A DNA stretch of 24,403 nucleotides from a virus, in IMG/VR virus record IMGVR_UViG_3300024346_000494, positions 1 to 24,403 of that record. One strand, given 5' to 3'. Of this stretch, positions 2,761-22,870 are shown in pieces. The notes below the pieces were generated by a model that worked only from the letters and a program-made list of their open reading frames with translations, was not told the origin of the DNA and searched no databases. Position 1 is the first letter of the stretch. The number at the start of each line of letters is the position of its first letter. A program made the translations under genes and the position numbers.

Positions 2761-3524
2761 ATTTCTCCAAAAATGTAGAAACTAGTAGTAGGTTTCTCTT
2801 TAGAATCTAAATACAAACTAATGGTATCAATAGCCTTTTCAAACTTTCTTCTTCCGCTATTAATTGTATCATCAGTAGCCATGAATACGGCAGGTAGATA
2901 GGGATAAGTTTTTTCTTGGGCAACCCAATAAAACTTACCTCCAAATACCTTGGTATAGATGTACGCTTGGATATCATAACCAAACTTAAATGCATCGTAC
3001 TTGAATGTTGAAACGCTCCGTGCTGATTTAAGGTCAACAATATCTCCGTTAGCAGTTAAACAATCAAGAAAACCTCTTACCGGAATCTCTCCAATAAATT
3101 TATTAAACTCAACTTGATATTCACCTTCAAGATATGTTTCTGCTATACCACAATCTTGTAGTCTATTAATCATATCTATAGCCATATCATAGTCTTCTGC
3201 TTTGACAATTTTCTTTCCTACATTACTATCGGAAAGTTCTGCAAGCCACTCCTTGTACTTTTTTGTAGACCTAGGACTAGCGCCCCCTATCTCCTCAAGT
3301 ATTTGAGCATCATCAAGAACAATGTACTTGCTCTCAACATCTTCGCTAGATGAGAACAGAAGGTCATCGTATAGACTTCCAAATGTTAGGGCATCGGACT
3401 CTTTTCTCAATTGTCCTGCCATGTACATTTCAAATAGCCTCATGTCTTGCAGTGCGTACTTGAGGGAGGAATACGATAAGTATCCCTTCCCCGTTCTCTC
3501 TTGCAGTTTTAAAGCAAAGTCCAT
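2757..3524 (-). CDS. PD-(D/E)XK exonuclease (RecE / DUF3799-like)
   Basis: 255 aa, close to the usual size of phage recombination exonucleases. Seen in order: TFGSLYDDLLF at 47-57, matching the G-x-x-[LH]-[HD] helix of the family; RGFLDCL at 150-156 with candidate metal ligand D154; DIVDLKSA at 161-168, the D-x-K motif with D164 and K166; and FGYDIQAYIY at 181-190 with the conserved Q186-x-x-x-Y helix. Such enzymes resect double-stranded DNA ends 5' to 3' and leave 3' tails for an annealing protein. The annealing-type gene lies immediately upstream, its stop sharing one base with this ATG (TAATG), which is the classic paired arrangement. Confidence 0.8.
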   Translation of the reverse strand: MDFALKLQERTGKGYLSYSSLKYALQDMRLFEMYMAGQLRKESDALTFGSLYDDLLFSSSEDVESKYIVLDDAQILEEIGGASPRSTKKYKEWLAELSDSNVGKKIVKAEDYDMAIDMINRLQDCGIAETYLEGEYQVEFNKFIGEIPVRGFLDCLTANGDIVDLKSARSVSTFKYDAFKFGYDIQAYIYTKVFGGKFYWVAQEKTYPYLPAVFMATDDTINSGRRKFEKAIDTISLYLDSKEKPTTSFYIFGEI

Positions 3525-4063
3525 TACACAAACTTTTCTAGTGCAGCAACTTGCTTTTCACTAAATACTGAACCATACTTAGACATGATTGCATCAAGTC
3601 CATTTTTGCGTTTGTCTTTAGACATGCCCTTCAAGTACTCAATAGCCTTACTGAAAGCATCGTCCTCTGATGGAGCGGGTCTAGATGTTTGACTAGGCAC
3701 AGAATCTTGCTTTTTAATTGCCATATCAACCTCATCTGCCGTAGCAATTGATGTCTCAACTCCGATACCCAAGAATCCTAATGCCCGGCCAACTGCTGAT
3801 GTTTCGCAGTTTTCTACATAAGATGTTTGATTGATTCGGCTAGAAGATTTGTCTTCTTGTGCCATTCCTTGAGACACAACAACACCTTCAGCGTTTCGGA
3901 TAGTGCATCGCACTACACAAGACTCGGTATCCAAGTGCAACAACTCGTTCTCAATTGAGAATCCTTTATACTCTGATAGACTGCGCAAAGCAATCACTCG
4001 CTGATTGACCTCAACATACTCTTTACCCTTGATGTTGGTGGTCTTAAACTGATAGTTAGACAT
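3524..4063 (-). CDS. Single-strand annealing / recombination protein
   Basis: 179 aa. The stretch YVENCETSAVGRALGFLGIG at 83-101 is a signature seen in phage proteins paired with recombination exonucleases: an ETSA-[VI]-GRAL helix ending in glycines. It is preceded by a beta-rich core (residues 15-70) with an [A/S]-QE-D/K turn. A low-complexity linker rich in S, P and D (115-140) leads to a helical C-terminal segment. It would bind single-stranded DNA and anneal it to a partner strand, working on tails made by the adjacent exonuclease. Assignment to the Rad52/ERF-like group is inference from the motif and gene pairing. Confidence 0.65.
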   Translation of the reverse strand: MSNYQFKTTNIKGKEYVEVNQRVIALRSLSEYKGFSIENELLHLDTESCVVRCTIRNAEGVVVSQGMAQEDKSSSRINQTSYVENCETSAVGRALGFLGIGVETSIATADEVDMAIKKQDSVPSQTSRPAPSEDDAFSKAIEYLKGMSKDKRKNGLDAIMSKYGSVFSEKQVAALEKFV

Positions 4064-6611: not shown

Positions 6612-6665
6612 GACATGGACATCCCCGAAGGGATGTTTCGGCTATTAAAGCCTCGTCAGCATGTC
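6612..6665 (-). ncRNA. Hammerhead ribozyme HHR1 (type I)
   Basis: Read on the minus strand. Stem I GACATG (6665-6660) pairs with CATGTC (6617-6612). Core CTGACGA is at 6659-6653. Stem II GGCT/AGCC (6652-6649 with 6643-6640) has loop TTAAT. GAA is at 6639-6637. Stem III ACATCCC/GGGATGT (6636-6630 with 6625-6619) is closed by a TTCG tetraloop. C at 6618 is the cleavage nucleotide, so cutting falls between 6618 and 6617. Every conserved core base of the hammerhead is present, including the A15.1-U16.1 pair. It starts three bases after the ATPase stop codon and ends 21 bases before the next ATG. Confidence 0.9.
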
Positions 6666-6668
6666 TGC

Positions 6669-7917: not shown

Positions 7918-7971
7918 GACATAGACATCCCCTAAGGAATGTTTCGGATAGTGAACCCTCATCAGTATGTC
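7918..7971 (-). ncRNA. Hammerhead ribozyme HHR2 (type I)
   Basis: On the minus strand: stem I GACATA (7971-7966) with TATGTC (7923-7918); core CTGATGA (7965-7959); stem II GGGT/ATCC (7958-7955 with 7949-7946), loop TCACT; GAA at 7945-7943; stem III ACATTCC/GGGATGT (7942-7936 with 7931-7925), loop TTAG; cleavage C at 7924. Compared with HHR1 the stems carry paired changes: the stem I closing pair G-C becomes A-U, and a stem III C-G becomes U-G. Pairing is therefore kept while the sequence drifts. The TGA stop codon of the 80-aa gene (7964-7962) lies inside the CUGAUGA core. Confidence 0.92.
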
Positions 7972-8204
7972 TGAAAGAAGCCTAGGCCTTTCACGAAGCC
8001 TACATAGTCTAGTGCTTCATCTTGTGTCATGCCTAGACTCCAATCCATTCGGTGAAGGAATGAATCCCCATTGAATGCTTGTACCTCTTGGAATTCTAGA
8101 CCATCACGAAAGAAGGTATTGATGATTACCTTGTAAGTTCCGAACTTGTAAGTGATTTGGTTGCCTTTGTTCATGTTTTCTAGGGTTTTAAGTATGTTTC
8201 GCAT
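7962..8204 (-). CDS. Hypothetical protein, 80 aa, between two ribozymes
   Basis: The frame starts at ATG 8202-8204 (MRNILKTLENMNKG) or at an internal ATG at 8172-8174. The later start would keep coding DNA clear of ribozyme HHR3, whose stem II contains the first ATG. The product has a beta-rich half (NQITYKFGTYKVIINTFF) and a helical end (TQDEALDYVGFVKGLGFF). No family recognised. It is the first gene of the cluster with the AAA+ ATPase and VWA-like protein, and its stop codon is nested in HHR2. Only a few dozen bases of untranslated RNA would remain on the message after both ribozymes cut. Confidence 0.65.
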   Translation of the reverse strand: MRNILKTLENMNKGNQITYKFGTYKVIINTFFRDGLEFQEVQAFNGDSFLHRMDWSLGMTQDEALDYVGFVKGLGFFQTY

Positions 8205-8239
8205 TTGCTCATCAGTACGGCTTTGGCCGTAGACATACT
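8191..8239 (-). ncRNA. Hammerhead ribozyme HHR3 (type III)
   Basis: On the minus strand: stem III 5' arm AGTATGT (8239-8233); cleavage C at 8232; stem I TACGGC/GCCGTA (8231-8226 with 8221-8216), loop CAAA; core CTGATGA (8215-8209); short stem II GC/GC around AAAT (8208-8201); GAA (8200-8198); stem III 3' arm ACATACT (8197-8191). All core positions fit. Here stem III is the open stem, so the permutation is type III, unlike HHR1 and HHR2. The ATG at 8204-8202 is inside stem II. Stem II of two (at most three) base pairs is short and may reduce activity. Confidence 0.85.
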
Positions 8240-8760
8240 AGGTGGGCGTTGGGCAGGTTCTCCGAAGTTCTTCCCTGCTTACTAAGCCCACCAAGTACCC
8301 TTGCTCACAAAGCGAATGCTCTGTGACCACCTTGGTGGCTCCCCATTTAGATGCGCCCATCGTTCCCTTGCTCTCCCTATACCGCTAGATGTCTAGTGGT
8401 GTAGTTACCCCAAGGTGATTTGGCAAGTCTCAGTTTCGCAGGCTTCGGCTCTCAGTTTCGTTCCTCCTCCGCAGAGCATTCCAAGCGGACATCCGCTTGG
8501 GGCTAAGTTCGGGCTTGGTCTACTAGTGGAGGCCTCTCGTGGCTCACTTGCGACTTTGCATCCTAGTTCCTCCGTTGATACCGCCTGCTTTCAGCGCATT
8601 TGGTCACTCAAATCTACTTTCGTATCCTATAGCCTTTCGGGTTGGGAGGGTAGGTTTTTTCTAGCGCTTTATCCGATGTCTTGGTCGGGCTTACTAGAGG
8701 CGGTGGTCAGTCAGTCATTCAGTTCGTGTTGTTTGATGGTTCAAAGGTAGTCGCAGAGAT
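8240..8760 (-). ncRNA. Structured leader RNA candidate released by HHR3
   Basis: No gene-like frame is convincing over about 520 bases, and the stretch is visibly GC-richer than the DNA to its right. It holds strong hairpins. AGCC-ACCAAG (8340-8331) pairs with CTTGGT-GGGCT (8295-8285), enclosing TCACAGAGC/GCTTTGTGA (8326-8305). A 9-bp stem is at 8381-8400 and an 8-bp perfect stem CCAAGCGG/CCGCTTGG is at 8481-8500. There is also a GCAGG/CCTGC stem near 8255-8280. CTCAGTTTCG occurs twice (8429, 8451). The orientation is inferred from HHR3 and the downstream leftward genes. It may be a long structured non-coding RNA or an unusually long 5' leader. Confidence 0.45.
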
Positions 8761-8776
8761 TTAATAAAAAAATTTT

Positions 8777-8803
8777 GTAAGTACTTGATACTCAGTGGGT
8801 TAC
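8777..8803. repeat. 27-bp imperfect palindrome, copy 1
   Basis: First of five copies. The consensus has outer arms GTAACT and AGTTAC and a centre CTTGATnnTCAG. This copy reads GTAAGTACTTGAT, then ACTCAGTGGGTTAC. It lies closest to the leftward leader RNA. Likely a binding site for a dimeric DNA-binding protein. Confidence 0.75.
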
Positions 8804-8818
8804 GAAAAAAAATCTGAC

Positions 8819-8845
8819 ATAACTGCTTGATTCTCAGTTAGTTAC
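8819..8845. repeat. 27-bp imperfect palindrome, copy 2
   Basis: Reads ATAACTGCTTGAT, then TCTCAGTTAGTTAC. It starts 42 bases after copy 1, about four helical turns, so both could be bound on the same DNA face. Confidence 0.78.
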
Positions 8846-8885
8846 ACATAAAAAAACCTCTTGAAAAAAAAAGTGAAAGTTTTTT

Positions 8886-8912
8886 CTAACTGCTTGATTT
8901 TCAGTCAGTTAC
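8886..8912. repeat. 27-bp imperfect palindrome, copy 3
   Basis: Reads CTAACTGCTTGAT, then TTTCAGTCAGTTAC. Its right end overlaps by two bases a TACGTTTG promoter box on the minus strand (8918-8911), so a protein bound here would block the start region of leftward transcription. Confidence 0.78.
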
Positions 8913-8918
8913 AAACGT
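8911..8918 (-). promoter_or_regulatory. Possible leftward promoter -7 box (TACGTTTG)
   Basis: Exact match to TAnnTTTG on the minus strand, directly beside palindrome copy 3. Transcription from here would pass through the hairpin-rich leader and ribozyme HHR3 into the AAA+ gene cluster. No clear -33 TTTG is seen at the usual distance; TTTA near 8935 is the nearest approach. Confidence 0.4.
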
Positions 8919-8959
8919 AATTTATACTCATTCTAAATAAGGAATTAGCGGATATGAAC

Positions 8960-8986
8960 CTAAGTCCTTGATTATCAGATACTTAC
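8960..8986. repeat. 27-bp imperfect palindrome, copy 4
   Basis: Reads CTAAGTCCTTGAT, then TATCAGATACTTAC. The central TTGAT-N-ATCAG is close to a perfect inverted repeat. It starts 74 bases after copy 3, about seven helical turns. Confidence 0.75.
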
Positions 8987-9022
8987 GTATTATGGCCAAG
9001 TCTAAGGCCCAATGGATAGGTA

Positions 9023-9039
9023 AGTGTATGATGTACACT
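9023..9039. repeat. Palindrome AGTGTA-N5-TACACT
   Basis: Perfect six-base arms around a five-base spacer. TACACTAAG, its right arm plus flank, recurs at 9339-9347 and, reversed, at 9137-9145. This is a second class of candidate operator lying between copies 4 and 5 of the 27-bp element. Confidence 0.5.
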
Positions 9040-9139
9040 AAGTCTTTTATATGAGTATGTAATCCCGCCTATGCGCTTGATACAAAATAGATTGCAGGCT
9101 TCCAAATAAAAGTGCGTTAAGTTTATGTTAAATCTACTT

Positions 9140-9156
9140 AGTGTATAAAGTACACA
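9140..9156. repeat. Palindrome AGTGTA-N5-TACACA
   Basis: Second copy of the AGTGTA-N5-TACAC element, 117 bases after the first, with five perfect arm pairs. Its left flank CTTAGTGTA is the exact reverse complement of the right flank of the first copy. Confidence 0.45.
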
Positions 9157-9169
9157 CAGATTTGGACAC

Positions 9170-9196
9170 GTAACTACTTGATTATCAGGCACTAAG
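9170..9196. repeat. 27-bp imperfect palindrome, copy 5
   Basis: Reads GTAACTACTTGAT, then TATCAGGCACTAAG. The left arm and centre are intact; the right arm is degraded. It starts 210 bases after copy 4, about twenty helical turns, on the side of the rightward genes. Confidence 0.7.
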
Positions 9197-9299
9197 CACT
9201 TCTCCGCAAAAAGGTATCCGTACCCCATAACGCACAAAGTGCGCTTAAAACGGCTTTAAATGCGTCATGTCACACGGATGACATATGCAAATATTTTGT

Positions 9300-9321
9300 A
9301 CACATTTAACACACATTTAAC
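9300..9321. repeat. Tandem 11-bp direct repeat ACACATTTAAC
   Basis: Two perfect head-to-tail copies at 9300-9310 and 9311-9321, just after the AT-rich AAATATTTTGT. Spacing of 11 bases is about one helical turn, which suits adjacent protein binding. Confidence 0.55.
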
Positions 9322-9487
9322 ATTGTAATTGTACATGCTACACTAAGGGTATGTGTACCCAACATTGGATGTTACAACATGCATTTCTAGGTGGGGCAGT
9401 TTAGGTGGGGGATTGTCCTGCCCAAAAGCATTTCCGTGTTTGAACATCAATCGTTTCGGGTTTACTCCCGGCATCGGCTAGACTTTA

Positions 9488-12330: not shown

Positions 12331-13359
12331 ATGGCTCAGTTAACTGGCAATAAAGTAAAAGATACATACGGTCAACTTCTTAAAGTACAAACTTCCGGAA
12401 TTACTACAACACGCAAAACCGTAGAAAGCGGAATCGGTGAAGCAACCGCCCTTAGCGTTGGAAGTACTAGTGTTGGATTAACAAACCCGTATGCAACATC
12501 AGTACCTTCAAGTAATACTTTAAGTACCGCCTTGTTTCTTGATACAGATGGCCAAATTAAAACAAGGTCGCTAGGAAACCAAGCATTTGAAAATCTTGCT
12601 CCAGTAACAGACTACGACACCGGGTGGATTGAAATGGATTCTTTTGATGGAGTAAGCGGTTTGTTTAAACTTGATTCAAATCCTAATGCACCTAAGTATA
12701 GAATTGTAAATAGACAAGTTTTTCTTAAAGGATTTTTTGTTCTTCCTGTAACATCTTTGTATCAAGACCAAAATTCTCCAGCGGTAAGTATTTATAGCGA
12801 TGTAGAAACCATTCAGTCTTCTACCCTCGCCACACTTAATACAGGCGTAACACCTACGGCAGATGGAAGAATTATTTTAAATAAAATTTTTAATAATGAT
12901 TTCTTTTATCTTGACGAAGATGAGCATGGCGCTTTGTTTCTTCCAATGTTTAGATATGGTGTAGACCCAACATCTACACGAAAGTTTATGTACAACACGT
13001 TTGCTGCTTTTAAATTTAACTCAGACTTAACTGCTGAAGTTCAGTCTATGCACTACTATGAGCAAGCGGGCCAAGTAAATGCTATCCCGATGCATCAATC
13101 GGCTACTCATGAAGTGATTAATAAGTTTATTGGAGGTTCCGGATATACGTTTATGAACTATGATGGTACTGGTCAATACTATACTCATTTCTTAAATAAT
13201 ACAGACAAACGCGCTGTTACTGATTCTAATGTTGAAATTCCATATACATTCTTAGGTGATGGGGCTGACATGAACACTTGGGGTGGTGTCATAGTTCCTT
13301 TGGACGGGATTAGTTTCTTTTTATCAAGAAACCTATCTTTGTCTCAAATTCACCCTTAA
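12331..13359 (+). CDS. Structural/fibre-type protein with KDTYG anchor motif
   Basis: 342 aa. The N-terminus LTGNKVKDTYGQLLKVQTSG matches the start of the 19857 protein (YIKDTYGNVLTIGTVSG), a shared segment that probably docks both to the same virion part. The region 10-90 is rich in S, T and G, as in fibre shafts; the rest (about 95-342) has many F/Y-rich strands typical of a globular beta head. No enzyme motif seen. It lies apart from the other fibre genes, next to the winged-helix regulator. Likely a head or tail fibre, or a receptor-binding component. Confidence 0.6.
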   Translation: MAQLTGNKVKDTYGQLLKVQTSGITTTRKTVESGIGEATALSVGSTSVGLTNPYATSVPSSNTLSTALFLDTDGQIKTRSLGNQAFENLAPVTDYDTGWIEMDSFDGVSGLFKLDSNPNAPKYRIVNRQVFLKGFFVLPVTSLYQDQNSPAVSIYSDVETIQSSTLATLNTGVTPTADGRIILNKIFNNDFFYLDEDEHGALFLPMFRYGVDPTSTRKFMYNTFAAFKFNSDLTAEVQSMHYYEQAGQVNAIPMHQSATHEVINKFIGGSGYTFMNYDGTGQYYTHFLNNTDKRAVTDSNVEIPYTFLGDGADMNTWGGVIVPLDGISFFLSRNLSLSQIHP

Positions 13360-13930: not shown

Positions 13931-14506
13931 ATGAATCCCTTAAGAGATTTTATTATACATCTTCCTAAGAAGGTTAATGATACTGTTAATGTAGGTGGGG
14001 TTGAACTTTATATGGAAACAAAGTTTGATGAGTTCAATCACCGCTACAATTTCGCTGAAATAACCGCTGTCCCAACAAAGTATAAATTGGGTGCTAAGGT
14101 AGGAGATACTCTCTATTTTCATCATCACATTATTAGTAATACTCAGTTATTTATATACGAAAACCACTATATTGTTTCATATTCAGAAGAGAATGGTTAT
14201 CATAACCATGCATACGCATATGAAACAGAAGATGGCCTTTATATGCTTGGAGACTGGGTATTTGTTGAAAGCATAAGCGAAAACAAAGAAGAAACTAGCG
14301 CTTCCGGATTAATAGTTAGTTTATCTAAACCGGAAGAAAAAGAAGGAAGATTGCTTTATATAAACAAAGCAACTGAAGAGATGGGATTAAAAGTTGGAGA
14401 TGTAATTGGATTTTCTAAAAATTCAGATTATCAGATGACTCTCAAAGACGGAAGAAAAGTTTGGAGAATGAGAAATGATGACTTAATGTATGTCAAAGAA
14501 AATTGA
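13931..14506 (+). CDS. GroES-like co-chaperonin, probably two domains
   Basis: 191 aa. The first half (about 1-112) has FIIHLPKKVNDTVNVGGVEL, then a mobile-loop-sized segment, VPTKYKLGAKVGDTLYFHH and a final strand LGDWVFVE. This is the order of a GroES fold: entry strand, P-containing turn, K-[VL]-GD-x-[VL]-x-F. The second half (about 118-191) repeats the theme: GLIVSLSKPEEKEGRLLYIN, GLKVGDVIGFSKNSDY, then VWRMRNDDLMYV, close to the GroES ending where the R/E-DD-[IL] strand closes the barrel. Phage GroES-like proteins (T4 gp31 and others) help host GroEL fold the capsid protein. A two-domain form is unusual. Confidence 0.55.
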   Translation: MNPLRDFIIHLPKKVNDTVNVGGVELYMETKFDEFNHRYNFAEITAVPTKYKLGAKVGDTLYFHHHIISNTQLFIYENHYIVSYSEENGYHNHAYAYETEDGLYMLGDWVFVESISENKEETSASGLIVSLSKPEEKEGRLLYINKATEEMGLKVGDVIGFSKNSDYQMTLKDGRKVWRMRNDDLMYVKEN

Positions 14507-16934: not shown

Positions 16935-16942
16935 TATATTTG
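16935..16942 (+). promoter_or_regulatory. Promoter -7 box (TATATTTG) for portal gene
   Basis: Exact TAnnTTTG match followed by CA, 24 bases before the portal ATG, in the 52-base gap after the terminase stop. No -33 box at the expected spacing. Confidence 0.55.
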
Positions 16943-16966: not shown

Positions 16967-19402
16967 ATGGACAGTAACCAGAATAAAAAGTTCGGGACTT
17001 TTCCAGACCCTTTTGCAGACCACGTCATAAAGTCTTCTAAAGGTTACGGACTTAAATACGCCAAGGCAATTGAGTCTCAATGGGGCAATGCGGACTCACA
17101 TACATCTTTGTACAGACAAAGACTAAAGAAATTTGAAGAGTCTAGAGATTATGCTGCTGGAACTCAAGATACAAATATATACAAACAAATCCTAAATAGC
17201 CTTGACCCAAATAATGGAGATGGCACGCTTTTGAATATTGACTGGTCTCCGGTTCCGATTATTCCAAAGTTTGTAAAAATTGTAGTAAATAAAATTTTAT
17301 CCAAGAAGCCATACCCAAATGTGGAGGCTATTGACCCGGTATCTCTTACTGAAAAAGAGTTTGAAAAAAACAAAATTCTTTTTACTCTTGAAAATAAAGA
17401 GATGATGCAGGAACTTGAGAACGCTGGACTTAAAGTTCCAGTTAATCTCAAATCTCTTCCTGAAACATCTGAAGAAGCAGAAATCTTTTTTGAAACTCAT
17501 ATTAAAATTGCAAGTGAAATTGCTGCACAGATTGCAACAAACTTAACACTTGAGTGGAATGAGTTTAATGATACTATCTACAGAAGGGCTGTAGAAGATT
17601 TAGTTACATGCGGTATGGCTGTAATTAAAAGAGAAAATGACCCTAACTATGGTATTCGTGAAACGTATGTAGACCCCGCATACTTTATTCACTCTTATAC
17701 TGAAGACGCAACCTTTTCTGATTTGGTCTACGCTGGACATATTAAAAGAATGTCCATTAATGATTTAAAAAGAATCGTAGGTAATGAACTTACTGAGGAG
17801 CAATACGAAAAAATTGCTAATCAGGTAAAGAACAAATACAATAACGACCCAAGAAGATTTGGAAGTTCTCAGTTTGATACTAACACTAGCAAACAAGTAT
17901 TTGGTTATGATGAGTTCCTTATTGAAGTTCTTGACTTTGAATTTCTCACCGTTGATAATGTATTTTACGAAGAGAAACAATCCAGATTTGGTAATGTCGG
18001 ATTTTACAACAAAGGTTTTGCTTACACCCCGCCTCAAGGCTCTGTATTTGACAGAAAGCCCGTTAATATGCAGACTGCTACAGTCTATGGAGGCACTTAC
18101 ATTATGGGTTGTGAGTATATAGTAAAATATGGAATGAAGAACAACATTCCTAAAAATATTCACGACATCTCAAGAGCAAGGCTTTCTTATTCTGTTGCTG
18201 CAACAAATATCCGCAGAATGATTCCCAAGTCTATGGTTTCGGGGATTATTGGATTTGCTGACCAACTTCAAATTACACATCTTAAAATTCAACAGGCAAT
18301 TGCTAAAGCAAAACCAGACGGAATTATTGTTGATATTGAAGGACTTGAAAATGTTCAACTTGGAATGGGTGGCGAACTTCAGCCACTTGATATTCAAGAC
18401 ATTTATGAGCAAACCGGTATATTTTATTACCGCTCAAAGAATCCAGAAGGCGGATTCCAAAATCCTCCTATCAGAACAATTGATAACCAAATTCGCAACA
18501 TCAACGAACTAATAGCCTTGTATAATCACTACTTAAGAATGATTCGTGATGCTACGGGAATTAATGAGGTGATGGATGGAACTACTCCAAAAGGGGAGCA
18601 ACTTGTCGGAGTAAGAGAACAAGCAATGAATGCTGGCAATAATGCTATCTATGATATTACTCATGCGTCACTTGTTCTGTATAGAAAAGTTTGTGAAGAT
18701 GTTGTTAGATGCATTCAGATTCTACCTAAACAATCTGTTATTTACAAAGTGTACGAAAAGGCTATTGGTAAAGAGTCTATGAAGGTTCTTAATCAATTCA
18801 GAGATTTACCTATGTACAATTTTGGTATCAAGGTTGTTACAGAGATGAATGAAATTGATAGGGTTCTTTTAGAACAAAACATTCAACAGTCTTTGGCTCA
18901 AAAAGAGTTAGACATTGAAGACGCTATTGCAATTCGCAGACTCAAAGATATTGACCAGGCCGAAAGACTTCTTGTTGTAAGACGGAAGAAAAGAATTGCT
19001 AGACTTCAAGAGCAGAATCAGCAAAACATAATGGCTCAGGCTAATGCTAACGCTCAGACTCAACAGATGGCTTCCCAGTCTAAGTCTCAAGAAATTCAAC
19101 TTACTGGTCAAGTAAAAGCGCAAATTTCTCAACTTGAAGCCCAACTTGAAATTCAAAAAATGCAAATGCAGCATCAGTTCAACATGGAACTTGAAAGAAT
19201 TAAAACTGAGACTTCTGCATTTATGAAACAATCTGACCATCAGATGCGTACTCAAATTGAAAATAAAAGAGAAACCGCAAAAGATGAAAGAGTTAAAAAA
19301 CAAGCAATTGAGCAGTCTAAACTCATTTCTCAAAGACAAGGCAATAGAGACGAACTCCAAGAGCCTGAAGAAGACCTTCTTTCTCAGTTGATGGGCATGT
19401 AA
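16967..19402 (+). CDS. Portal protein
   Basis: 811 aa from ATG 16967-16969; an upstream in-frame TTG falls inside the promoter box. Evidence is position right after terL, large size, and sequence layout. A mixed N-terminal domain has an early SWNAD/SxYRQRLKKFEESRDYAAG-like segment. A core carries IDWSPVPIIPKFVKIVVNKI and a long helix-turn region (IYEQTGIFYYRSKNPEGG, then INELIALYNHYLRMIRDATGI). A C-terminal tail of about 170 residues is rich in Q, A and K and likely coiled coil, ending EEDLLSQLMGM. The dodecameric portal ring is the DNA gate and binds the terminase. A diverged copy of its last codons recurs at 20871-20927. Confidence 0.82.
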   Translation: MDSNQNKKFGTFPDPFADHVIKSSKGYGLKYAKAIESQWGNADSHTSLYRQRLKKFEESRDYAAGTQDTNIYKQILNSLDPNNGDGTLLNIDWSPVPIIPKFVKIVVNKILSKKPYPNVEAIDPVSLTEKEFEKNKILFTLENKEMMQELENAGLKVPVNLKSLPETSEEAEIFFETHIKIASEIAAQIATNLTLEWNEFNDTIYRRAVEDLVTCGMAVIKRENDPNYGIRETYVDPAYFIHSYTEDATFSDLVYAGHIKRMSINDLKRIVGNELTEEQYEKIANQVKNKYNNDPRRFGSSQFDTNTSKQVFGYDEFLIEVLDFEFLTVDNVFYEEKQSRFGNVGFYNKGFAYTPPQGSVFDRKPVNMQTATVYGGTYIMGCEYIVKYGMKNNIPKNIHDISRARLSYSVAATNIRRMIPKSMVSGIIGFADQLQITHLKIQQAIAKAKPDGIIVDIEGLENVQLGMGGELQPLDIQDIYEQTGIFYYRSKNPEGGFQNPPIRTIDNQIRNINELIALYNHYLRMIRDATGINEVMDGTTPKGEQLVGVREQAMNAGNNAIYDITHASLVLYRKVCEDVVRCIQILPKQSVIYKVYEKAIGKESMKVLNQFRDLPMYNFGIKVVTEMNEIDRVLLEQNIQQSLAQKELDIEDAIAIRRLKDIDQAERLLVVRRKKRIARLQEQNQQNIMAQANANAQTQQMASQSKSQEIQLTGQVKAQISQLEAQLEIQKMQMQHQFNMELERIKTETSAFMKQSDHQMRTQIENKRETAKDERVKKQAIEQSKLISQRQGNRDELQEPEEDLLSQLMGM

Positions 19403-19434
19403 AATATTGGTTTTAAGTAAGTTGTATATTTGCA
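19382..19434 (+). repeat. 53-bp direct repeat, copy A (portal 3' end + promoter)
   Basis: Covers the last seven portal codons (SQLMGM and stop), the short gap and the TATATTTGCA box. It matches 20907-20959 at 52 of 53 positions (T/G at 19418). Confidence 0.92.
19425..19432 (+). promoter_or_regulatory. Promoter -7 box (TATATTTG) for 19469 gene
   Basis: TAnnTTTG match followed by CA, inside the 53-bp repeat. The leader to the ATG at 19469 is about 30 bases and almost only T-rich, with no ribosome-binding purine run, which fits Bacteroidota-style initiation. Confidence 0.6.
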
Positions 19435-19468: not shown

Positions 19469-19738
19469 ATGTCTTACTTGAACATTATTGCTCCAGCAAA
19501 TCACGCCCTGCAATCATTTGGGCAGTCTGGATTTAGACTTATTGACCCTACTGTTACTGTAAATCCAGAGGGCGAGTTTTACAGAGTTATCTATGCTTTA
19601 GATGATTCTATTATTTCTACTGTTTCTGCTAAAGGAGATTCTTTATCAAGCATTCCCGTACTTGCTGGCGCTGTTCTTTATGGACTTTTCAGTGAAGTTT
19701 ATTGTGAGACTGGTGTAATCATTGCATACATCGCCTAA
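19469..19738 (+). CDS. Small structural-region protein, 89 aa
   Basis: Start ATG 19469-19471; upstream frame extension into the promoter was rejected. Sequence MSYLNIIAPANHALQSFGQSGF..., then beta segments (GEFYRVIYALDDSIISTVSAKGDSL) and a hydrophobic C-terminal part (AGAVLYGLFSEVYCETGVIIAYIA). Probably a small all-beta domain attached to the virion. No named family recognised. Its stop shares a base with the next ATG (TAATG). Confidence 0.6.
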   Translation: MSYLNIIAPANHALQSFGQSGFRLIDPTVTVNPEGEFYRVIYALDDSIISTVSAKGDSLSSIPVLAGAVLYGLFSEVYCETGVIIAYIA

Positions 19739-19860
19739 TGTTATTGGGTCTTGGATTGCAGTTAAATCTGCTAAAAGGAAGAATCAAGCAGGCCTTGAAA
19801 ATCTGGAACATCAGAAATAAAAAATGGAATACTGAAACCTCTAAATGGAATCATAGATGA
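19738..19860 (+). CDS. 40-aa protein, translationally coupled
   Basis: ATG at 19738 shares its A with the preceding stop, and its TGA at 19858-19860 overlaps the next ATG by 4 bases. The product begins with a leucine/glycine-rich stretch (MLLGLGLQLNLLKG) and continues with a basic, tryptophan-containing helix (KQALKIWNIRNKKWN). An amphipathic membrane-active peptide or a small assembly factor are both possible. The overlaps on both sides are the main evidence that it is real. Confidence 0.5.
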   Translation: MLLGLGLQLNLLKGRIKQALKIWNIRNKKWNTETSKWNHR

Positions 19861-20546
19861 AACTCACAGACGAATATATTAAAGACACATACGGAAACGT
19901 CCTTACCATTGGAACCGTTTCTGGGCATCCAGTATCCGGAGTATTGTTTAATGGATATGGAGATACAATTGAGTCTATTGAAATTAAACATGGCGCTTTT
20001 CCTGCTACAAGCGTAAAAGTAACAAGCACTGTACATGGATACTCTTTGCTTTTAGGAGGTAGCGACATTTGGTTTACAAGACCATATCAAAACTCTTACA
20101 TTAGAGCAGCAGCCCTTGGTTCTGAAATTCGCTTTACTGCAAGTAACGCAACGCTTCACGACAAAAGCCCAATTACTATTAAACCAAATGGTAATGTACT
20201 TATTAATACAACCATTGATTCTGGATATAATCTTAGAGTAAATGGCACGCTTACTTCGGGAAGTTTAGATGTAGATGATGCTATTGTTGCTGATTCTGTT
20301 ACGGCTGTTTCTTTAGTTGGTGATGGAATTCAATCAAACTCTACTGTTACTGCTACTGACTTTATTGCAAGTGGAATTTTAGATGCTTCAGGAATTAGAA
20401 CTCTCGCACCTCTTAACGAGCAACAAGTTGCTGAAATTCGTTTTGGAGACGTTGCAGCCTCTGGTACTCAAATTGTTTTAGACAATGTTAATTATATCCC
20501 TATTGAAATTAACGGGATTACATTTAAACTTCTTATTTCTTTATAA
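19857..20546 (+). CDS. Fibre-like protein with KDTYG anchor
   Basis: 229 aa. The N-terminal EYIKDTYGNVLTIGTVSG matches that of the 12331 protein. Residues 105-135 (ITIKPNGNVLINTTIDSGYNL then RVNGTLTSGSLDV) follow the P-x-GNV-x-I-x-T ... L-x-V-x-G pattern common in trimeric phage fibre shafts. The C-terminal part (from about 185, NEQQVAEIRFGDVAASG...) looks like a small beta tip. Likely a short fibre or adaptor involved in host contact. Coupled by overlaps to genes on both sides. Confidence 0.65.
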   Translation: MKLTDEYIKDTYGNVLTIGTVSGHPVSGVLFNGYGDTIESIEIKHGAFPATSVKVTSTVHGYSLLLGGSDIWFTRPYQNSYIRAAALGSEIRFTASNATLHDKSPITIKPNGNVLINTTIDSGYNLRVNGTLTSGSLDVDDAIVADSVTAVSLVGDGIQSNSTVTATDFIASGILDASGIRTLAPLNEQQVAEIRFGDVAASGTQIVLDNVNYIPIEINGITFKLLISL

Positions 20547-20797
20547 TGGCAAGTATTACTATTCAACCTAAAACATATCCCAACGGAACTGCCGTTGGAA
20601 TGGAAGTAGTTGCTACTTCATTTAGTGCTATGGCTACTTATTGTGACCTTTATTGCAAACTTGTAGATGCTGAAGATGAAACTCTATACGAGTGCAATAT
20701 TCTTCTTGCTGACGAAGACTTTGCAAACTGGGGAGCAGATAATGGTTATATCATTGACTTTGCAGCAGCAAAACTAGAAGTTAATATTGTAGAATAA
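20546..20797 (+). CDS. Small structural-region protein, 83 aa
   Basis: Start and previous stop share a base (TAATG), and so do its stop and the start of the truncated 20797 gene. Sequence MASITIQPKTYPNGTAVGMEVV..., then DLYCKLVDAEDETLYECNILLADEDFANW, suggests a beta-sandwich tip or chaperone-like accessory. Two Cys flank the middle strand. No family named. Confidence 0.6.
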   Translation: MASITIQPKTYPNGTAVGMEVVATSFSAMATYCDLYCKLVDAEDETLYECNILLADEDFANWGADNGYIIDFAAAKLEVNIVE

Positions 20798-20883
20798 TGG
20801 CAACATCAGTAAACTTAGACATCTCCAAAAGAGTTGATATAACTTGCAGAAAAGGCGATAGTTTTAGTTTGGAAATGAGTTAG
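20797..20883 (+). pseudogene. Truncated N-terminal copy of the 20962 gene
   Basis: 28 codons, then TAG. MATSVNLDISKRVDITCRKG closely matches the start of the 20962 protein (MAYQINLDTSQRVDITCRKG), and the next residues DSFSLE match DTFTLV. After that the frame runs into foreign sequence derived from the end of a portal gene. The ATG still shares a base with the stop before it, so the fragment keeps its original operon position. It is a gene cut short by recombination, not a designed small gene. Confidence 0.85.
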
Positions 20884-20927
20884 AAGAGCCAGAACAGGAC
20901 TTGCTATCTCAGTTGATGGGCATGTAA
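20871..20927 (+). pseudogene. Remnant of a portal gene 3' end
   Basis: In the frame starting at 20871 the codons read GNELEEPEQDLLSQLMGM then TAA. The real portal ends with ...DELQEPEEDLLSQLMGM. The remnant differs at several synonymous and non-synonymous sites upstream of LSQLMGM, so it came from a relative's portal gene or from an old duplication. It cannot be translated as part of a full gene here. Confidence 0.85.
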
Positions 20928-20959
20928 AATATTGGTTTTAAGGAAGTTGTATATTTGCA
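20907..20959 (+). repeat. 53-bp direct repeat, copy B
   Basis: Second copy of the portal-end-plus-promoter segment, one mismatch from copy A and 1525 bases downstream of it, bracketing the 19469-20883 genes. It supplies the promoter for the 20962 gene. Confidence 0.92.
20950..20957 (+). promoter_or_regulatory. Promoter -7 box (TATATTTG) for 20962 gene
   Basis: Same box as at 19425, copied in the repeat, but here only four bases before the ATG, so the message would be leaderless or nearly so. Confidence 0.6.
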
Positions 20960-20961
20960 CT

Positions 20962-21321
20962 ATGGCTTATCAGATTAATCTTGATACATCACAAAGAGTA
21001 GACATTACTTGTCGCAAAGGCGATACATTTACTCTTGTTCTAACATTTAATGATGAATTTGGTATTCCATTAGATTTAAACGGATATGTTTGGAGTCTTG
21101 ATGTAAGAGAAACAGATACATCATCAGGTACAATTATAGATGCAGACCAGTTTTCATATACTGGAACATCTGATGGCAATCTAACAATAAAAGCAGATGC
21201 TTTAACGATGGCTCTAATTGAAGGTGGTATTTATGTATATGACTTACAATCAAGTAATGTTGGTAATGTTAAAACTTGGCTTTACGGTATATTTAAAATA
21301 AACGAGGACGTTACATTATGA
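20962..21321 (+). CDS. Baseplate/tip protein, BppU N-terminal-like
   Basis: 119 aa from ATG 20962-20964, immediately after the promoter box. The pattern RVDITCRKGDTFTLVLTFNDEFGIPLDLNGYVWSLDVRE (in part, residues 12-50) is the [RK]-G-D-[ST]-[FW]-x-L...D..G-x-P-x-[DN]-L-x-G-Y strand set of many phage baseplate upper or tail-tip domains. The rest (SDGNLTIKADALTMALIEGG, then YVYDLQSSN) completes a beta-sandwich. Probably a minor tail protein that helps attach fibres. The 20797 fragment is a broken paralogue. Stop overlaps the next ATG (ATGA). Confidence 0.65.
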   Translation: MAYQINLDTSQRVDITCRKGDTFTLVLTFNDEFGIPLDLNGYVWSLDVRETDTSSGTIIDADQFSYTGTSDGNLTIKADALTMALIEGGIYVYDLQSSNVGNVKTWLYGIFKINEDVTL

Positions 21322-21644
21322 GTAATATAACTGTAAATAGCGGAGAAAATATAAATGTAAGTGTAAAACAATCAACACTTCAAAATACCGTAGTAATACC
21401 AAAAGGACAAACATCTTTGTCTGTAAAAGGCGTTACTGGTGGCGGAGGAGATGCTCATTTTGTATTTACTCAATCAATCCCAGAATCTATTTGGGAGATT
21501 ACTCATAATCTAGGAAAGAAACCATCGGTAACGGTAGTTGACTCAGGTGACTCTGTTGTTGTTGGCGAAATAGAATATATCAACCTTAACTCTGTACGTT
21601 TAACATTTGCTGGAGCCTTTAGCGGTAAAGCATACTTTAACTAA
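21318..21644 (+). CDS. Minor tail/fibre-tip protein with HNLGK domain
   Basis: 108 aa. N-terminal half is a flexible beta strand set (ITVNSGENINVSVKQSTLQN). A GGGG linker precedes FTQSIPESIWEITHNLGKKPSVTVVDSG, followed by GEIEYINLNSVRLTFAGAFSGKAYFN in parts. The W-x-I-x-HNLGK-x-PSVTVVDS ... V-x-x-x-F-x-x-x-x-x-G-x-A-Y-x-N pattern is a common C-terminal module of phage tail and fibre proteins. Coupled to the 20962 gene, so both likely belong to one tip assembly. Confidence 0.7.
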   Translation: MSNITVNSGENINVSVKQSTLQNTVVIPKGQTSLSVKGVTGGGGDAHFVFTQSIPESIWEITHNLGKKPSVTVVDSGDSVVVGEIEYINLNSVRLTFAGAFSGKAYFN

Positions 21645-21649
21645 TAACG

Positions 21650-22870
21650 ATGGCTATTAATTATCTATCATCCATTAACCTTGGCAAACTGGAAATCCAG
21701 AATGCACGTGTACACAACTTGGCTAGCGCTCCATCAAACCCTGTTGCTGGTCAGATTTACTATGACACTACGTCATTTACAATGTACTTCTACAAAATTG
21801 TATATGATGGGTCAAACAATATTATAAGCCAAGGCTGGGTAGATATCCAAGGTGATATTCAAGAGGTAATTGCAGGTGACGGTCTTACTGGCGGTGGTGC
21901 TAGCGGTTCGGTAACACTTAACGTAGGTGCCGGTACTGGTATTACCGTTGCTGCTGATTCGGTAGGTCTTGACACACTCCACACTAGAAACGTAGCGCAC
22001 GACAGCATCACCCTTACGGCAGGCGCTGGCTTGACTGGTGGCGGTGATATCACTACTTCTCGCACGTTTGCTGTAGGTGCAGGTACTGGTATTACTGTAA
22101 ATGCTGATAGCATTGAGTTGACCAACTCCGGCAACCTGACTCAGTATAAGTTGTTGATGTGGGGTGCCAACCAACTTGAGCAACCAAACATTACACGCAC
22201 GGTAGACCAAAGTAGTAACGAGACAATCACGTTCGGTGGTGCTGCGGTTGTTATTGCTGGTAACCTTACCGTAAATGGTACTACTACTAGCGTAAACTCT
22301 AATGAGGTAAATATCGGTGATTCAATCATCAAGTTGAACTCTGATGAGACTGGCACCGCTTCACAAAACGCAGGTTTTGAAGTAGAGCGTGGCACTGACG
22401 CTAACGTGTCCTTCATCTGGGATGAAACCAACGACTACTTCTCTACGATTGACCAGCCATTCCATATTGGTAACGTAGCCACGATGACTCCTGACGGTAC
22501 GGACTTCTTCTATATGTATGAGAATGCTACAGGAGAGACTGGTATCGTTAAGAAGGCAAACGTCAATACTGTCGCTGACCTTTTGGGCGCTCCTAAGTGG
22601 TTTACCCTTGACTCAACGCAAGATTCTGTTAGTAAAGTAGGAAACACGTACACAATCACTCACGACTACAATACTCAGCGCATTATGGTTCAAGTGGTTG
22701 ATTCAACTACGTTTGAGACTGTGTTTGTTGATACGGCTAGACCTACCACTAGCACGGTCACTATTGCATTCGCTGCAACGGTTACTGAGGGCGCTTATAT
22801 CGCAATCCTATCTGCTGCTAAATTGAACGGTGATAGCCTCGTTTACGAAGGATTGACTCAATCACCCTGA
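21650..22870 (+). CDS. Tail fibre protein
   Basis: 406 aa. Begins MAINYLSSINLGKLEIQNAR and VAGQIYYDTTSFTMYFY, a segment seen at the base of many fibres. The shaft has repeats of the type AGDGLTGGGASGSVTLNVGAGTGITV (in part), occurring three times between about 78 and 155 as G-x-GLTGGG ... GAGTGI. Next come GNLTVNGTTTSVNSNEVNIGDSII (in parts) and SQNAGFEVERGTDANVSFIWDE, motifs of the trimeric fibre family. The C-terminal domain carries another strand set around THDYNTQRIMVQVVDSTTF, resembling the HNLGK module of the 21318 protein. Codon choice looks GC-richer than in upstream genes, suggesting exchange. A terminator follows. Confidence 0.78.
   Translation: MAINYLSSINLGKLEIQNARVHNLASAPSNPVAGQIYYDTTSFTMYFYKIVYDGSNNIISQGWVDIQGDIQEVIAGDGLTGGGASGSVTLNVGAGTGITVAADSVGLDTLHTRNVAHDSITLTAGAGLTGGGDITTSRTFAVGAGTGITVNADSIELTNSGNLTQYKLLMWGANQLEQPNITRTVDQSSNETITFGGAAVVIAGNLTVNGTTTSVNSNEVNIGDSIIKLNSDETGTASQNAGFEVERGTDANVSFIWDETNDYFSTIDQPFHIGNVATMTPDGTDFFYMYENATGETGIVKKANVNTVADLLGAPKWFTLDSTQDSVSKVGNTYTITHDYNTQRIMVQVVDSTTFETVFVDTARPTTSTVTIAFAATVTEGAYIAILSAAKLNGDSLVYEGLTQSP

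Follow-up and report, generated by a model that had tools for sequence, protein, structure and literature searches.

A probable recombination scar joining two alternative gene layouts behind the portal gene of a flavobacterial-type virus

The window, that is, the whole 24,403-nt stretch of DNA analysed, is a 24.4-kb virus record of flavobacterial type, and its positions 20797-20961 are in all likelihood (a probability of about 0.85) a real, non-functional recombination scar, at which a phage of one gene layout (B) was joined to a phage of another (A). In layout A, the portal gene, a promoter of the pattern TAnnTTTG and a gene of the 20962 type stand in direct succession, and in layout B a 19469-type gene, a variable cassette and a full-length 20962-type gene come after the portal and the promoter. 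The window has layout B at its left and layout A at its right, and carries the TAnnTTTG promoter twice, at 19425 and 20950. Its right half holds a terminase gene (phrog_6681) and the portal gene (phrog_6547), after which the order is 19469, 19857, 20546, a 28-codon open reading frame (ORF) at 20797, 20962, 21318 and 21650. The features of the locus are as follows.

16967-19402, plus strand: intact portal gene (phrog_6547 portal, E 1.6e-190); the ORF opens with TTG at 16940 and has its first ATG at 16967
19382-19434, plus strand: 53-bp tract, copy 1, with the last six portal codons, the stop and the promoter TATATTTG at 19425
19469-19738, plus strand: first cassette gene, G19469, a small beta protein, directly after the portal in B-type relatives
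19857-20546, plus strand: second cassette gene, G19857, its N-terminus common with cassette genes of relatives L005 and L029
20546-20797, plus strand: third cassette gene, G20546, present in the window lineage only
20797-20874, plus strand: truncated 5′ end of a 20962-type gene, with 26 codons clearly of that family
20874-20875, plus strand: putative recombination junction, placed by the relatives' sequences on either side
20875-20927, plus strand: remnant of the 3′ end of a second portal gene, ELEEPEQDLLSQLMGM-stop, recognized by tblastn and by nucleotide comparison with the portal tail
20907-20959, plus strand: 53-bp tract, copy 2, 52/53 identical to 19382-19434, with the promoter TATATTTG at 20950
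20962-21321, plus strand: intact 20962 gene (phrog_1084), with a predicted Ig-like/BppU-N-like fold
21318-21644, plus strand: tail-fibre-type gene 21318, adjoining 20962, with A-type phages as closest relatives
21650-22870, plus strand: tail-fibre-type gene 21650, 83-84% identical to A-type relatives

The ORF at 20797 begins with MATSVNLDISKRVDITCRKGDSFSLE, and its codons 1-25 match the 20962 product at 18 of 25 residues (47 of 75 nt), which confirms the preliminary description of this locus in taking it for the 28-codon start of a 20962 paralogue. Its ATG overlaps the stop of the 20546 gene, and several B-type relatives have the same overlap between the cassette and their 20962-type gene; the truncated gene therefore occupies the site of the B-type 20962-type gene. 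By comparing relatives on both sides, the switch to another sequence, previously set at about 20871, was upheld and its position moved to about 20874/20875, where, going by the relatives' sequences, perhaps 0-2 bases match. Beyond the switch, the second portal end, the promoter and the intact 20962 gene were all found in the order described before, except that the 'GN' of GNELEEP, formerly counted as portal, is probably not, because the left homology to the 20962 type extends through TTGGAA (...SLE) and the portal homology of the remnant is clear from ATGAGTTAGAAGAGCC (compare 'GATGAGTTA' in L005). The fused ORF terminates at the TAG at 20881-20883.

The portal of the window, whose C-terminal end is DELQEPEEDLLSQLMGM-stop, has its nearest relative in L005 (72%). 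With the portal tail as the query, tblastn matched a second portal end further downstream, past the portal stop (E = 1.1e-5), and nucleotide comparison aligned it with the phage's own portal over 76 nt at 91%. Between the two ends, mismatches were found at 12 of the 33 nt directly upstream and then at 1 of 53 (Fisher p = 2e-5), in agreement with the earlier remark that the remnant has diverged from the own portal end except in the last 53 bases. The single difference between the 53-nt tracts (19382-19434 versus 20907-20959) is T at 19418 versus G at 20943, and the tract holds unchanged synonymous sites together with a spacer of ~15 nt absent from all other relatives. To account for this near-identity, either a further exchange or a donor of close kinship is needed. 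Probably the two copies of the last 53 bp became alike through a later exchange, in which the own end would have overwritten the scar copy after the join, as fits the sharp mismatch step, or else the portal end of the A donor was closely related from the outset, as fits the ATGAGTTA that the remnant has in common with L005.

Alternatively, the own portal end could have been copied downstream into a second 20962-type gene by local duplication and then diverged, which would explain the last 53 bp being nearly identical to the own copy as well as the resemblance of ATGAGTTA to L005, the sister of the own portal. Nevertheless, the sharp step to 12 differing positions in the 33 nt directly upstream speaks against such a copy, many of the changes are synonymous or conservative, like those between homologous genes and unlike those of a decaying copy, and the two 20962-type genes, the A-type start context and the A-type downstream genes would be left unexplained. 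We consider this duplication improbable.

To place the locus among its relatives, some 110 loci whose portal belongs to the window's family were collected, and the counts given here are of distinct sequences. A portal followed directly by a 20962-type gene, which the preliminary description had suggested looking for, was found in the 55 sequences of layout A, in which the 20962-type gene lies within ~15-30 nt of the portal stop. The other parental layout, with a full-length 20962-type gene after the portal, the 19469-type gene and a cassette, was found as layout B (24 sequences); there, zero, one or several very different genes come between the 19469-type gene and the 20962-type gene, the ATG of which in most cases adjoins the stop of the last cassette gene or overlaps with it. 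TAnnTTTG precedes the 20962-type gene in 55/55 sequences of layout A versus 1/10 of layout B, and follows the portal in 24/24 of layout B (background 2.7%), which indicates that the promoter belongs to the portal end. A sigma-70 promoter scan gave nothing above chance. TAnnTTTG is the −7 box of flavobacterial sigma-A promoters (PMC9723704), and likewise in both window copies TATATTTG stands a short way ahead of a start codon or an untranslated leader, the likeness being one of motif match.

On the portal tree, the A or B label changed at least eight times on well-supported branches. A portal-end block, TAACCAGTAA...TAnnTTTG, precedes both 20962-type and 19469-type genes, so that a short conserved sequence stands ahead of alternative downstream modules among the relatives, as in linker exchange. 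In the form TAA[CT]CA[GA]T[AG]A...TAnnTTTG the block occurs in two reading frames with respect to the portal, and depending on the phage it provides the last portal codons (DNQ-stop or GNQ-stop) or is untranslated after an earlier stop. Since it precedes either gene and is either coding or untranslated, the boundary between the portal and the next gene has been re-joined on many occasions, and since this phage group has alternated repeatedly between A and B in the slot, the event of the window is one of many. Despite this repeated switching, the window lineage alone keeps a portal remnant: relatives that share the arrangement with a conserved fragment, named beforehand as a finding that would count against a scar, were looked for, and a systematic scan of the relatives' loci found no second portal remnant in any other lineage. 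A match in L159 was rejected as a remnant, being that contig's own portal with frameshifts that are probably sequencing errors. Separately, at 5938-6062 of L065, between the portal and the 20962-type gene, we noted 29 codons that resemble the C-terminus of an L029 cassette gene, followed by the promoter; this segment may be a mirror case, a scar of cassette loss, its match being weak (E 0.23).

The two flanks of the join have different phylogenetic neighbours. In the portal tree, the window pairs with the B-type L005 (100/98, full support), and forcing its portal to join the right-hand A relatives was rejected (p-AU 4e-8 and 6e-6). The closest relatives of the 21318 product, at 77-81% identity, are A phages, and the clade that it belongs to contains layout A alone (97/91). 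The tree of the 20962 product is weak here and admits L005 (B) into the same clade (82/74), and the foreign origin of the right side therefore rests on 21318 and the portal remnant. The start context of the scar, TATATTTGCACTATGGC, is that of the A relatives L283 and L332. With both parental layouts existing separately and with flanks that differ in their nearest relatives, the earlier proposal of an illegitimate recombination between two relatives gains support.

The region is spanned by three IMG/VR contigs (L002, L003 and L004) from three datasets, with 99.95-99.99% identity to the window, and the junction is thus present in independent assemblies. It is identical letter for letter in L002 and L003; L004 differs by one base at 20918, within the portal remnant, and therefore represents a different haplotype. 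Some of the three datasets could share one sampling programme, and the SNP-bearing L004 is independent evidence.

The AlphaFold model of the 20962 product (pLDDT 89) has an Ig-like fold, for which Foldseek found T5/DT57C tail tip chains and the 80alpha baseplate as the closest structures, and its BFVD matches include a BppU N-terminal protein. The product is thus predicted to have an Ig-like/BppU-N-like fold as in T5-type tail-tip proteins; by sequence, it had no match in PDB, Pfam or NCBIfam, and matched phrog_1084 only, a family of unknown function. Its likeness to BppU-N-like/T5 tail-tip adaptors is one of modelled fold, and the nearest named relatives are podoviruses. A functional arrangement, in which the short ORF served as a leader and, with the second promoter, was retained to tune the fibre genes, would agree with the promoter motif that is always ahead of the 20962-type gene in layout A and with the fixation of the structure in all contigs of the window lineage. 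However, most of the predicted fold is missing from the 28-codon ORF, neither the leader nor the portal remnant occurs in any other lineage, and the remnant of one contig carries a substitution, which makes this arrangement still less probable than the duplication. An assembly chimaera, in which two co-occurring phages were wrongly merged at their common 53-bp promoter region, is the least probable reading and very unlikely. Both layouts do circulate, and a repeat of this length could deceive a short-read assembler, but the same join recurs in three contigs of three datasets with long flanks on both sides and with one SNP inside the scar, and a mis-join at the repeat would not produce the break of the 20797 gene at 20874, which lies 32 nt outside it.

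For the recombination scar that we favour, a mechanism can be proposed from sequence comparison. A B genome and an A genome would have been joined, presumably during co-infection, at a point without evident homology, as judged from relatives rather than from the parents, the join running from codon 26 of the 20962-type gene of B into the last codons of the portal gene of A. The recombinant would keep the portal and the cassette of B and a dead 28-codon gene start, together with a piece of the portal end, the promoter and the intact fibre genes of A. The retained promoter would then drive 20962 and the following genes, which in B phages are mostly without a promoter of their own, and by its motif match it may still serve the downstream fibre genes. 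As the join brought in the fibre genes intact and with a complete promoter of type A, it was probably tolerated. A later exchange between the two portal ends, or a donor closely related there, would have given the alike 53 bp.

That the window has a gene for a RecE-type exonuclease (phrog_412, E 8e-44) makes phage-borne recombination plausible, in line with work on lambda Red and homeologous recombination by phage-encoded recombinases (PMC2327257). In the window, the alike portal ends likewise suggest exchange between diverged copies, but the primary join is without clear homology. Profile and family searches named no annealing partner of the exonuclease with confidence, and the candidate at 3524-4063 was not nameable. 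The exact parents were not found: searches with the promoter pattern and with the 20546 and 19857 proteins returned the window lineage only, and a QLMGM-stop pattern returned that lineage and many contigs, among which the sole full portal relative, L179, is distant (31%) and has another ending. The window DNA had no match in the named phage collection, a protein search of named phages found distant relatives only (the Cellulophaga phi38:1 group and Flavobacterium elemo phages, ~28-32%), and a search of a genome collection gave one match, a 33% relative in a Sphingobacteriales MAG.

Clean module boundaries are usual in phages, and their origin is debated between illegitimate joining followed by selection and exchange at shared boundary sequences. 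Both illegitimate recombination and short conserved boundary sequences have been discussed for phage mosaicism (PMC3029335), and as there, diverged modules were joined in the window near a gene boundary, with the portal end and the promoter as the shared boundary; in the window, however, the join is not a clean boundary but has remained imperfect and still has a second portal end beside a truncated gene. At this locus, a join without evident homology lies beside the common promoter boundary, present in two nearly identical copies, and the whole is an untidy intermediate preserved in a slot for which the portal tree requires eight or more switches. The finding is ordinary phage mosaic evolution in an unusually clear form, and what it adds is the repeated switching of the slot and a rule for this phage group, that the promoter goes with the portal end and the following module is exchanged behind it.

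The direct repeats around the cassette are near-identical and 1,525 bp apart, and a recombination event pairing the two would remove the cassette and bring back a clean layout A. That the 53-bp repeats thereby make the 1.5-kb fibre-associated cassette a reversibly lost unit, with mixed populations with and without it, seems doubtful. In the Cluster I mycobacteriophages Brujita and Island3, a repeat-flanked insertion/deletion pair is known (PMC3029335), and the repeats flanking the window cassette could similarly yield a shorter form via general recombination; unlike that pair, an excised form was absent among the window-type contigs found, as an exact promoter pattern search of the assembled contigs returned no cassette-deleted form. 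In the cassette gene G19857, the N-terminal motif LTxxxIxDTYxNVLTIG also occurs in cassette genes of L005 and L029, the remainder being unrelated.

Several other elements were observed in the window. Two different genes have, at 12331-12400 and 19857-19930, a common N-terminal motif, LTxxxxKDTYGxxLxI, which also begins cassette genes in L005 and L029 and is possibly a shared virion-anchoring segment. A GroES-like co-chaperonin gene (13931-14506; phrog_13932, Pfam Cpn10) adjoins the packaging genes, and a tRNA-Arg gene with the anticodon tct lies at 1108-1182 on the minus strand. The non-coding region 8770-9350, with five TAACTnCTTGATTnTCAGnnAGTTAC-like repeats and three copies of GTAAGTGTATnnnGTACACTAAG, is possibly an origin or a regulatory region. 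Next to it, ~550 nt at 8205-8760 are GC-rich (52%), without convincing genes or an Rfam match, and may be a structured RNA, the plus strand folding somewhat better than mononucleotide-shuffled sequence. Finally, two 84%-identical elements at 6613-6667 and 7919-7975 (both on the minus strand), each adjoining the start of a minus-strand gene, contain the core of a hammerhead ribozyme (CUGANGAG ... GAAAC ... GUC), are both predicted to fold into the same three stems, and gave weak RAGATH-1 hammerhead matches in Rfam (24-25 bits, under the cut-off).
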